Source: Oscillospiraceae bacterium
Lineage (GTDB): Bacteria; Bacillota; Clostridia; Oscillospirales; Acutalibacteraceae
Assembly (NCBI GenBank): GCA_015066565.1
Contig: SVOB01000001.1
Location: 372,001-436,000, forward strand
DNA: 64,000 nucleotides
Direction of reading: 5' to 3'
The notes under the pieces are model-generated. The model made no database searches. It was not told where the DNA came from and saw only the letters and a program-made list of their open reading frames with translations. Both the position numbers and the translations under genes were made by a program. Below are positions 1,239-7,577 of the stretch, piece after piece (position 1 is the stretch's first letter; every line of letters starts with the position of its first letter).

Positions 1239-1529
1239 ATGAAATACCTGTTTGTTATATTCGGTATTACGGTCGGTCTTATTCAGTTATTCTTACTTAA
1301 AAAAACCGCTGATTCGCTTACCGCAGGGAAAAAGGATTTTCTTCTTTTTGTTCTTATTAAGCTGGTTATTTATGCCGGCGCAATAAGTCTTTTACTTTTA
1401 TTATTCCGTGAATTCATTCTGTTCGCAGGCATAGGTCTTGCGGCAGGAATGATTTCGGGGGCGTTTATAAACTTCTTTATAACGCTTCAAAAGGGAAAAA
1501 ACAATGATAAGGGAGATGATGCTCCTTGA
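1239..1529 (+). CDS. ATP synthase subunit I-like small membrane protein
   Basis: A 96-residue protein with about three hydrophobic helices (roughly residues 3-20, 35-56 and 60-82) and a charged C-terminus. It is the first gene of the F-type ATP synthase operon, where AtpI/AtpZ-type accessory proteins usually lie. Family knowledge suggests a role in c-ring assembly or Mg2+ supply, but sequence conservation is low and I assign it by position and topology. Its TGA stop overlaps the TTG start of atpB (TTGA). A clear AAGGAG site precedes the ATG. Confidence 0.65.
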   Translation: MKYLFVIFGITVGLIQLFLLKKTADSLTAGKKDFLLFVLIKLVIYAGAISLLLLLFREFILFAGIGLAAGMISGAFINFFITLQKGKNNDKGDDAP

Positions 1530-2416
1530 GCACGGCAAGTATAATAAAGCTTATAGTTTCAGCCGTTGCAGCTGTCGGATTCTTTATTGCAAAAAACTAT
1601 GTCAAGCATAAACCGGACGACAGCATTGAACCAAAAAAGAAGAAAAAACTCAACAGGCTGTTTTTCTTTGGACTTGTTTTATCGGTATGGTATTTTATTG
1701 CATGCGTAATCAATGAAATATCAGGCGGTCCGAACGGAATTCATGTGGAATTCGACCTGTTCTCAAATCGGGTAAGCTTATTCGGCTTTTCCGTTTCGCA
1801 GACGACAGTCACAACCTGGTGTATTGTGGCAGTTATCACACTGCTTTCACTTATTTTCAGGTTGTTTGTTTTCCCGAAGTTCAAGGACATTCCGAAGGGC
1901 ATACAGAATGTTGTTGAAATTATGGTAGAGGCTGCAGACAATTTTACTTCTTCGCAAACCCACAATCTATCCCCTGTTCTCGGCGAATATATTTTTTCAC
2001 TTGCGCTTATGATTGTCGGTTGCGCCGCAGTTGAGCTGTTCTCGGTGCGTCCGCCGACATCAGACCTTATTTTTACTTTTTCGTTAGGTCTTGTTACATT
2101 TATTCTTATTAACTATTTCGGAATAAAAAAGAAAGGTTTCGGCGGAAGGATAAAGGCTCTTGCCTCGCCTAACCCGATTATTATGCCGATGAAGATTCTC
2201 AGCGACATTGCAGTTCCCGTATCGCTTGCCTGCCGACTTTTCGGTAATATGCTCGGCGGTATGATAGTAATGGATTTGTTAAAAACATCTCTCGGCGGAT
2301 ATGCAGTCGGTATGACCTCACTTGCGGGTTTGTATTTCAATCTGTTCCACCCGCTAATACAGGCTTATATTTTCATTGTATTAACATTAACTTTTATAAA
2401 CGAAGCTACTGAATAA
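1526..2416 (+). CDS. atpB: ATP synthase Fo subunit a
   Basis: The membrane stator subunit that carries ions to and from the c-ring. The 296-residue protein has about six membrane segments. The segment PVSLACRLFGNMLGG near residue 230 contains the essential arginine (equivalent to E. coli aArg210), and FNLFHPLIQAYIF near 270 is the conserved last helix. The N-terminus is longer than usual, with a basic KKKKK stretch near residue 38 after the first hydrophobic helix. The start is a TTG that overlaps the stop of the preceding gene, with GGGAG upstream, so translation is probably coupled. It is followed 15 bp later by atpE. Confidence 0.95.
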   Translation: MSTASIIKLIVSAVAAVGFFIAKNYVKHKPDDSIEPKKKKKLNRLFFFGLVLSVWYFIACVINEISGGPNGIHVEFDLFSNRVSLFGFSVSQTTVTTWCIVAVITLLSLIFRLFVFPKFKDIPKGIQNVVEIMVEAADNFTSSQTHNLSPVLGEYIFSLALMIVGCAAVELFSVRPPTSDLIFTFSLGLVTFILINYFGIKKKGFGGRIKALASPNPIIMPMKILSDIAVPVSLACRLFGNMLGGMIVMDLLKTSLGGYAVGMTSLAGLYFNLFHPLIQAYIFIVLTLTFINEATE

Positions 2417-2431
2417 AACGGAGGTATATTT

Positions 2432-2644
2432 ATGAACGCAATCGCAGCAGCACTCGCACTTCTTCCTGCACTGGGCGCAGGCCTCGGCATGGGACTTGCA
2501 ACCGCAAAAGCCGTTGAAGCAACAGCACGTCAGCCTGAAGCATCAGGTAAAATCAATGCAATTCTTCTGCTTGGTCTTGCTCTTGCCGAATCAACCGCTA
2601 TTTACGGCTTTGTTATAGCGCTTATTCTTCAGTCAAAGGTCTGA
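2432..2644 (+). CDS. atpE: ATP synthase Fo subunit c
   Basis: A 70-residue two-helix hairpin that forms the rotary ring. Helix 1 carries a glycine-rich stretch (residues 15-21), the polar loop is ARQPEA (32-37) and helix 2 holds the ion-binding carboxylate E53 in the sequence AESTAIY. The E-S-T-x-x-Y pattern (E53, S54, T55, Y58) is the helix-2 part of the signature known from Na+-driven rings such as Ilyobacter tartaricus. However, the helix-1 position occupied there by Gln32 is Met20 here, so the coupling ion is uncertain. A GGAGG-type site precedes the ATG. Confidence 0.96.
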
Positions 2645-2656
2645 TAAGGAGATATT

Positions 2657-3154
2657 ATGGAAGGTTTAGATGTTTCAAAGCTCCCTATTGATTTGCTGCT
2701 TAATATTCTCAATATTATTCTTCTTTTCGTTATTACAAGATTTCTTGTATATAAGCCTGTTAAGAAATTTTTACAGGAGAGAAAGGATAAAATTGAAGCT
2801 CAGAAGCAGGAAGCTGCCGACAAATTAAAGGAAGCTGAAGATATTAAGGCTCAATATTCCTCTCTTATTGCCGAGGCTGAAACTAACGCAAGACAAGCCG
2901 TACTTAACGGTGAAGCAGAAGCCAGAAAGCAGGCGACGGAAATAATCGACAGGGCTAACAGAGAAGCCGAAGATATTAAAAAGACCGCTTCGCTTGAAGC
3001 TCAGAAGGAAAAAGAAGCGACGCTCGGCTCTATGAAGAACGACGTTGCGGCTCTTGCCGTTTCAATTTCGGAAAAAATCCTTTCAAGAGAGATTACCGAC
3101 AAGGACAACGAGAGAATTGTCGAGAGCTTTTTAAATAGCGGTGATAACGAATGA
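2657..3154 (+). CDS. atpF: ATP synthase Fo subunit b
   Basis: The peripheral stalk subunit, 165 residues, a normal length. One N-terminal membrane helix (about residues 12-30, NILNIILLFVITRFLVYKPV) is followed by a long Lys/Glu/Ala-rich coiled coil that dimerises and reaches up to F1. The C-terminal segment ISEKILSREI matches the region that binds delta in other species. The gene ends with a 4-bp overlap with atpH (ATGA). Because b is of normal length, it does not carry the N-terminal domain that atpH lacks. Confidence 0.95.
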   Translation: MEGLDVSKLPIDLLLNILNIILLFVITRFLVYKPVKKFLQERKDKIEAQKQEAADKLKEAEDIKAQYSSLIAEAETNARQAVLNGEAEARKQATEIIDRANREAEDIKKTASLEAQKEKEATLGSMKNDVAALAVSISEKILSREITDKDNERIVESFLNSGDNE

Positions 3155-3369
3155 AAAAGGCTGTAATCACCGTTTGTGAGAGTATGTCCGAAAACACATA
3201 TTCCACGCTTTTAAACGGTATAAAAAAGAAATTCGGTGAGGATATTTCCGTCACAAAACAGGTTGACCCCTCGCTTATAGGCGGGTTTATTCTGACAGTT
3301 GACGGCGTTGTTTACGACAACAGCGTTTCCTCTTTCTTAAATGAAATCAAAAAAGAACTTATTGATTAG
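3151..3369 (+). CDS. atpH: ATP synthase F1 subunit delta, C-terminal domain only
   Basis: Delta/OSCP links the b stalk to the top of the alpha-beta hexamer. This protein has only 72 residues, against about 175-185 in the family. What is present matches the C-terminal domain: the motif VDPSLIGGFILTVDGVVYD (residues 38-56) is the family's best conserved stretch. The N-terminal six-helix domain, which binds the alpha N-termini in E. coli, is missing. The preceding atpF is intact and overlaps by 4 bp, so there is no upstream sequence that a frameshift could have cut off. It lies 10 bp before atpA, as delta genes do. Confidence 0.85.
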   Translation: MKKAVITVCESMSENTYSTLLNGIKKKFGEDISVTKQVDPSLIGGFILTVDGVVYDNSVSSFLNEIKKELID

Positions 3370-3379
3370 AGGATAGACA

Positions 3380-4875
3380 ATGAATAATAATTTAACCGAA
3401 AACATAAGTTCATATCTTAAAAGAATAATCGACGAATACGAGGTTAAGCCTATCTCCTACAGATACGGCTCGGTTGAAAAATTAGGCGACGGCGTTGTGC
3501 GCGTCGCTAATCTTCCCGACTGCTGTTACGGAGAGCTGCTTGAATTTGAAAGCGGCGCTTACGGAATGGTTCTCGACCTCGAAGAAAACCGCGTCGGCGC
3601 TGTTTTGCTTGAAAAATCAAACCTTGTAAGAGTCGGCGAAACGGTTAAGGGTACGGGAAGAGTTGTACGTGTACCCGTCGGCGACTGCTGTCTTGGAAGA
3701 GTTCTTGACCCAATCGGAAGAACCTTTGACGGCGAAGAGTTAAAAGCTTCGGAATACTACCCCGTTGAAAGACCCGCACCAAAGCTCATTGACAGACGTC
3801 CCGTTGACACTCCCCTTCAGACAGGTTTTATTTCAATCGACAGTATGATTCCTATCGGCAGAGGTCAGCGAGAGCTTATTATCGGCGACAGACAGACGGG
3901 TAAAACCTCGATAGGCATTGACACTATTATTAACCAGAAGGGACAGAACGTAATCTGTATCTACTGCGCCATAGGTCAGAAGGCTTCAACCGTTGCGGGC
4001 GTTATAAAAACGCTTCGTGATAACGACGCTATGGACTATTCCATAGTCGTGTCCGCAACAGCGGCTGACAGCCCGGCTATGCAATATTTAGCTCCGTATT
4101 CAGCCTGCGCAATAGGCGAATATTTTATGGAACACGGAAAAGACGTTCTTATAGTCTATGACGACCTTTCAAAGCACGCTATCGCTTACAGAACAATGTC
4201 GCTTCTGCTTCACAGACCACCCGGACGCGAAGCTTATCCGGGCGACGTATTCTACCTTCACTCAAGGCTTCTTGAAAGAGCAGCCTGCCTTTCTAAAGAA
4301 AAGGGTGGCGGTACGCTTACAGCTTTACCGATAATCGAAACTATGGGCGGAAATATTTCAGCGTATATTCCGACTAACGTTATTTCAATAACGGACGGTC
4401 AGATTTACCTTGAAAGCGAGCTTTTCCACAGCGGTGTAAGACCTGCGGTAAACACGGGCCTTTCGGTTTCGCGTGTCGGAAGAAGCGCACAGAGAGAGGC
4501 TATGAAAAAGGTTTCGGGTTCTCTTCGCATTGAGCTTGCGCAATACCGTGAAATGGCTGTATTCGCCCGTTTCGGCGCCGATATTGACGACACGACAAAG
4601 GCTTTGCTTGAACGCGGCGAACATCTTACCGCCCTGTTTAATCAGGGAAGACTTGACACCTATTCATTAAGCGAAATGGTTATTATGCTTTACGCATTTA
4701 ATAAAAAGGCTTTTGCCGGCGTTGAAAACAGTCAGCTTGACGAAAAGAGTCACGAATTATATGAGTTTGTTAAGAAAAACTATCCTGCGGCAGTAAAAAA
4801 TATTGAAACGACCTATGACCTTGACGACTCAACAAAGGAAACGCTCAAAAAGGCCATTAAAGAGTGGGTGGCGCT

Positions 4876-4879
<4 letters not shown>
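3380..4879 (+). CDS. atpA: ATP synthase F1 subunit alpha
   Basis: The non-catalytic nucleotide-binding subunit of the F1 head, 499 residues, close to the usual 500-510. The Walker A motif GDRQTGKT is at residues 169-176 and the signature PGREAYPGDVFYLHSRLLER lies near 280-300. The N-terminal amphipathic helix (ENISSYLKRIIDEYE), which in other species docks on the N-terminal domain of delta, is retained although that domain is absent here. The gene ends with an overlap (GTGA) with the proposed atpG start. Confidence 0.98.

Positions 4880-7577
<2,698 letters not shown>

Follow-up and report, generated by a model that had tools for sequence, protein, structure and literature searches.

The analysed window is a stretch of 64,000 nucleotides from the genome of an Oscillospiraceae bacterium (G000), and it carries an operon for an ATP synthase on the + strand. 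The operon opens with a small reading frame for a membrane-protein-like product of 96 amino acids (1239..1529), which bears the label atpI from its position alone and has no significant match in Pfam. This is followed by atpB for subunit a (1526..2416, 296 aa, TTG start; PF00119, E 3.6e-37), atpE for subunit c (2432..2644, 70 aa; PF00137, E 1.1e-16) and atpF for subunit b (2657..3154, 165 aa; PF00430, E 9.6e-21). The start of atpH (3151..3369, 72 aa, ATG start; OSCP family, PF00213) overlaps the stop of atpF by 4 nt. Ten nucleotides past the atpH stop codon begins atpA for subunit alpha (3380..4879, 499 aa), with a score of 681 bits against TIGR00962 (cut-off 484) and matches to PF00006, PF00306 and PF02874. 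The remaining genes are atpG for gamma (4876..5745, 289 aa; PF00231, E 2.1e-73), atpD for beta (5762..7168, 468 aa; PF00006, E 4.8e-72) and atpC for epsilon (7161..7577, 138 aa; PF02823, E 2.7e-22).

All eight subunit genes match their own Pfam families. The gene order (a c b delta alpha gamma beta epsilon) and the F-type alpha make this an F-type ATP synthase. It is not of the V/A type: alpha falls far below the cut-offs of the V-type B models, and the proteins of the operon belong to F-type families. Nor is it an N-ATPase, as shown by its F-type gene order and by subunit b, which scores 44.3 bits against TIGR03321, where the cut-off is 224.7.

The unusual member of this operon is the delta subunit. 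Its residues 3-70 match positions 104-172 of the 172 positions of the Pfam OSCP model (E 2.2e-14). With 54.3 bits against a gathering cut-off of 22.3 the protein belongs to the delta/OSCP family, and it stays under the cut-offs of the NCBIfam delta models. Delta of the two-domain kind has a helical N-terminal domain (NTD) ahead of the C-terminal domain (dCTD). Here the match is confined to the end of the model, and therefore the N-terminal 100 residues or so are missing, as a sequence-only reading of this DNA had proposed. That reading also described atpF as normal in length with a 4 bp overlap, and the alpha N-terminal helix as retained. Subunit b indeed has 165 residues, and alpha, itself of normal length, keeps the N-terminal segment that precedes the beta-barrel (about residues 1-27).

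A separate gene for the NTD was considered and rejected. The genome is 99.25% complete in 3 contigs, and a search of it with the whole OSCP family gave no second match at E <= 10. A profile of the NTD alone, built from 18 rows, was likewise silent in this genome and in the other NTD-less genomes searched (12/12 in all), while all four controls were positive (4/4).

A dCTD without an NTD recurs among relatives of the window, where it occurs in several arrangements. In an order-wide sample of 394 genomes, OSCP matches at E <= 0.001 occur in 204. Going by the best match of each genome, the NTD is lacking in 57 of these 204 and wholly or mostly present in 144, and 3 are other cases. In six of the 144, a delta that retains its NTD wholly or for the most part is fused to alpha (G180, G326, G388, G362, G236, G257). 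Three weak matches were excluded from the 57: one is FliH by Pfam (G154), one lies at a locus without an ATP synthase operon (G234, locus L162), and one at a locus without any ATP synthase match (G311, locus L154).

The commonest arrangement, class II, joins the dCTD to the N-terminus of alpha (32/57, open frames of 579-668 aa). In class III (15/57) a second stalk subunit, b', precedes the dCTD and alpha in a single chain, and b has a gene of its own; the open frames span 736-784 aa, that of G177 being cut at 521 by the contig end. Class I, split as in the window, accounts for 8/57 with the window included. Two classes have one member each: class V carries the dCTD at the C-terminus of b (G315, locus L109), and class VI has tandem dCTDs ahead of alpha (G133, locus L107). 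In total, the dCTD is fused to alpha in 48 of the 57 genomes (32 of class II, 15 of class III, 1 of class VI). Pfam confirms the domain orders in five examples from classes II, III, V and VI.

The genus of the window adds one split case (G027) and three triple fusions (G017, G028 and G013, the last 9% contaminated). Among its 36 genomes, window included, 2 have the split dCTD, 3 the triple fusion, 6 a full delta, and 25 no OSCP match over the cut-off, so that the ATP synthase seems to have been frequently exchanged or lost in this genus. In a sample of the phylum (199 genomes, 172 with an OSCP match), the 11 weakest besides the window were re-examined. In five of them (G441, G483, G574, G498, G527) the dCTD match lies in an open frame 612-659 aa long, and these are read as dCTD-alpha fusions by frame length alone. 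In another, G598, the dCTD lies in a frame of 246 aa close to a contig end. The split form was not seen among these 11.

Split genes in the order b, dCTD (71-74 aa), alpha are thus found in the window and in 8 other genomes. One of these belongs to the same genus (G027), one to the same family (G382) and six to the same order (G051, G092, G062, G277, G231, G093). In G062, b is cut by the contig start. Concerning the number of alpha genes, G000 has a single one, and the split-type genome G093 has an additional alpha fragment of 260 aa on another contig.

Some information on how these arrangements arose comes from a maximum-likelihood tree of 111 alpha cores. It was built in quick mode with SH-aLRT support only and is unrooted, drawn at the midpoint, with several long branches, so that its details are uncertain. 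The window alpha falls in a clade of 13 rows (SH-aLRT 99), of which 9 are split, 3 alpha-fused (L132, L099, L131) and 1 b-fused; all 13 lack the NTD. The 18 class III alphas form a single clade (support 100). Another clade (37 rows, 98) holds 29 of the 32 class II alphas, and its other members are the tandem form, one row with a full delta that is unfused, and the 6 fusions of full delta to alpha. The canonical alphas (43/44) are on a separate branch with support 91. From this distribution it follows that the NTD was probably lost more than once, and in at least one lineage after delta had been fused to alpha.

The tree also bears on the close relatives, where an intact atpH had been named as a possible refutation. 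Full-length delta does occur in 6 of the 35 other genomes of the genus. However, the alphas of all six are on the canonical branch, apart from that of the window. These genes belong to another ATP synthase lineage, not to an intact version of the window gene, and do not refute the loss.

A structural explanation for the missing domain is available from the FoF1 of Bacillus PS3. According to Ueno et al. (2025; PMC12229609), this enzyme has one delta, whose NTD lies on the threefold axis, in the central concavity. One alpha N-terminus touches the C-terminal region of delta, the other two touch the NTD, and the NTD restricts the enzyme to one stalk; all F-type ATP synthases studied to date have one a-subunit per complex. 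Ueno et al. deleted the delta NTD of the PS3 enzyme and fused the dCTD to alpha (PDB 9jc1). The resulting enzyme is described as having a maximum of three stalks and three a-subunits, at an H+/ATP ratio of 5.8. Its cryo-EM particles had no stalk in 15%, one stalk in 51% and three stalks in 8% of cases. The average was 1.26 stalks per particle by cryo-EM against about 2 by biochemistry, an apparent loss in preparation. The authors worried that an unfused dCTD would bind unstably.

The window and the engineered enzyme are alike in the missing NTD, the retained dCTD and the retained alpha N-terminal segment, and they differ in that the dCTD of the window is a separate protein. A covalent dCTD-alpha link is present in 51 relatives (32 of class II, 18 of class III, 1 of class VI), and some relatives depart from the engineered design by adding b' to the chain, fusing the dCTD to b, or having two dCTDs. 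PMC12229609 names a likely natural case, a dCTD-alpha fusion without NTD in the FoF1 of Acidaminococcus fermentans and in two UniProt entries (G4Q3K6, A0A1I2C5T3). It shares the NTD-less dCTD with the window group, and the available text of the paper is silent on the split, b'-dCTD-alpha, b-dCTD and tandem forms. A literature search over titles and abstract openings, with subscription papers and preprints outside its range, met a natural NTD-less delta-alpha fusion in this paper alone. Within the same range, and in passages of text, it met no description of the split, b'-dCTD-alpha or tandem forms, nor of b-dCTD outside the N-ATPases. As far as this search and the available parts of the paper reach, these four forms have not been described, and dCTD-alpha has been noted.

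The triple-fusion chain of locus L166 allows a direct comparison with the engineered protein. Its residues 189-734 align without interruption to residues 30-574 of 9jc1 chain I, from the second half of the dCTD through the end of alpha. An AlphaFold2 model of this chain (pLDDT 73.7, medium) has a helix at residues 2-19, which by its position is a predicted membrane helix, a stalk helix at 64-120, the dCTD at 158-228, an alpha N-terminal helix at 240-254, and then the alpha barrel. The top three Foldseek matches of this model are the three engineered chains of 9jc1; in VIA-align, 9jc1 was not among the best 50 rows. The dCTD may lie on alpha as it does in 9jc1.

One consequence of a fusion to alpha is that it fixes stoichiometry, provided that the fused chains are real and no free alpha exists beside them. 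A contig scan with the N-terminal region of class III confirmed 134 loci, and the best 80 of these were studied. Their titles point to the guts of ruminants, rabbits and horses and to Christensenellaceae, among other origins. Among these best 80, all of the triple-fusion frames that are uncut by a contig end (77/77) are open from b' through the end of alpha; as the 134 loci were picked by similarity to a fused query, this count speaks for intactness and not for frequency. A census of alpha by its C-terminal domain (PF00306) covered the 51 genomes with dCTD-alpha fusions. A match was found in 50 of them, with exactly one alpha in 48, three in G013 and two in G406, all in fused frames. No unfused alpha was met among the 51, the frame of G177 being interrupted by the end of its contig and some of the genomes being incomplete. 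In 50 of the 51, no additional alpha that could loosen the 1:1 ratio of dCTD to alpha turned up.

Every F1 contains three alphas. If only fused alpha is present and the chain stays uncut, there will be three dCTDs per F1, and in class III three b' stalk helices with their membrane anchors as well. The fused chain could be cleaved after translation, or an internal start could give free alpha. A methionine is present in the scanned stretch of linker and alpha N-terminus in 20 of 33 class II/VI chains and 9 of 18 class III chains, three chains (L152, L097, L096) having been misparsed; judged from these sequences, such a possible start is not conserved. The spacing from the YD motif of the dCTD to the GE motif of alpha is 65-74 in class II (n=32) and 70 in 18/18 of class III. 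In the window it sums to 67 over the two proteins (18+49). Since this value lies within the range of 65-74 for fused chains, the split form looks like a fused chain cut at the linker, though the agreement may be trivial, the comparison being with fused chains alone.

Taken together, the window enzyme is probably a natural F-type ATP synthase capable of holding several stalks, in unfused form, with a stalk number that we infer. Its dCTD most likely holds the C-termini of b in a clamp and attaches directly to the N-terminal segment of alpha. Fusion of the dCTD to either partner within the window clade is what would be expected if it bridges b and alpha. Once the threefold axis is free of the NTD, the N-termini of the three alphas would become equivalent sites, and nothing known would keep the dCTD from binding each of them. 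Since the NTD is what limits the enzyme to a single stalk, losing it makes several possible. F1 could then hold two or even three peripheral stalks, each with its own a-subunit. Several stalks would raise the number of H+ per ATP, so that ATP could be made at a low proton-motive force, as would suit a fermenting anaerobe. In the unfused form of the window, stalk number would be set by the amounts of b and dCTD that are produced.

The sequence-only reading had concluded that the stator must be joined to F1 in another way. This stands, in that an alpha N-terminus already contacts the dCTD in PS3, according to PMC12229609, and relatives fuse the dCTD to alpha, to b, or to both; the joining therefore needs no unknown part. 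The conclusion was incomplete, as the wider pattern and the multi-stalk consequence were missing from it.

The fusions of the relatives mirror the engineered design, and nature may thus already make multi-stalk ATP synthases. A broader proposal, which we advance tentatively, is that there is a large radiation of mostly gut Clostridia with three-stalk ATP synthases. Three stalks would be obligatory in the b'-dCTD-alpha forms, because every alpha there comes with a stalk helix and a membrane anchor of its own. One c-ring would then be served by several a-subunits, with H+ (or Na+) per ATP set by stalk number and ring size, and the window would be an unfused member whose stalk number is adjustable by expression. 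The H+/ATP ratio is a basic constant of bioenergetics. If natural enzymes have two or three stalks and a-subunits, this ratio gains a second genetic control besides c-ring size, and gut anaerobes would show ATP production at low proton-motive force. The natural designs, with an unfused dCTD or b'-dCTD-alpha chains, may also keep their stalks better than the engineered enzyme.

Another model for the window enzyme is a single stalk with a minimal delta. Here one dCTD and one b dimer would serve each F1, two alpha N-termini would stay empty, the NTD would be dispensable, and H+/ATP would be ordinary. The split genes of the window are also compatible with one dCTD per enzyme, as a separate dCTD gene permits a ratio of 1:3. 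In addition, a single alpha interacts with the dCTD in the PS3 structure, and most particles of the engineered enzyme had no stalk or one (15% and 51%), as given in PMC12229609. However, the clade of the window includes dCTD-alpha fusions (L132, L099, L131) that force dCTD and alpha to 1:1 if uncut, and with that ratio nothing known breaks the threefold symmetry. The single-stalk model is possible and, on this evidence, rather unlikely.

Alternately, the role of the NTD could be filled by some other protein that went unrecognised, or by a diverged domain within one of the other subunits. A very diverged domain can escape a profile search. Even so, the NTD profile was silent in 12/12 NTD-less genomes with 4/4 controls positive, and the genes from b to epsilon, which overlap or lie at most 16 nt apart, leave no room between them, the gene downstream of the operon being on the opposite strand. 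Such a substitute is very improbable. (The operons of relatives were mapped for ATP synthase matches alone.)

It might also be supposed that the ATP synthase carries little weight in a fermenting organism and that atpH is a degenerating remnant. The 25 of 35 other genomes of the genus without an OSCP match above the family cut-off, some of them incomplete, would agree with this, and the enzyme may hence be non-essential in the genus. In G277, moreover, one of two split-type copies has a broken alpha. Against decay, the dCTD compared with that of G027 has pN 0.18 and pS 0.57, similar to b, which indicates purifying selection. The split order is shared by 9 genomes, each of the eight subunit genes in the window matches its family, and 77/77 of the uncut triple fusions keep an open frame. 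Decay is thus very improbable. The two operon copies of G277 (L128 and L129) lie in a single-contig genome, the alpha of the second being in two frames.

An assembly or read error as the cause of the short atpH is very unlikely and deserves next to no weight, as no point in its support was found, the identical order is present in 8 other genomes, G027 of the same genus among them, and the 4 nt overlap between b stop and dCTD start recurs in 5 of 9 split operons.

Related joinings of stalk and delta parts are known from other systems. The b model of the N-ATPases (TIGR03321, 246 positions) matches the window dCTD at positions 178-244 (1.6e-05), and describes a b chain that ends in a dCTD. In N-ATPases delta is absent or fused with b, according to PMC11738941. 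Their gene order (beta epsilon X X a c b-delta alpha gamma) and the fusion itself are unlike the window, and the multi-stalk question may extend to them, given the dCTD at the end of their b model. The E subunit of V/A-ATPases and FliH differ from the window, where b is in the F-type b family and the other subunits are all F-type.

The mycobacterial b-delta fusion retains the NTD. Its stalk and delta parts are joined in one chain, with a dCTD match at residues of about 374-445, as they are in L109. Unlike it, L109 has no NTD, and the window is unfused. The fusion in L109 (5492-6178, - strand) is a b-dCTD chain of 229 aa with a separate alpha, found in the alpha clade of the window, and its layout resembles the N-ATPase b chain and FliH.

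Further variants were seen at single loci. In L107 (3240-5261), the tandem dCTDs stand ahead of alpha, and by eye each copy is followed by a stretch resembling the alpha N-terminal segment; the repeat unit may be a dCTD with an alpha-N helix. In G170 (C94:24916-25644), one open frame of 261 aa holds a delta of full length along with another dCTD match. In L092 and L094 (same genus), L166 and other class III loci, a separate b of about 141 aa accompanies the b' that opens the b'-dCTD-alpha chain. This suggests that class III stalks are b/b' heterodimers, one for each alpha.

Phmmer maps had left the triple-fusion operons without epsilon. That absence was rejected, as a short epsilon-like frame of 96-128 aa is present by eye after beta in five class III loci (L166:10376-10738, L184:10425-10712, L201:10420-10716, L241:10445-10774, L232:10352-10735). 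By eye these frames correspond to the N-terminal sandwich, like the C-terminally deleted epsilon in the engineered enzyme. The epsilon frames of L164 and L165, canonical operons of the same genus, are 94-98 aa long.
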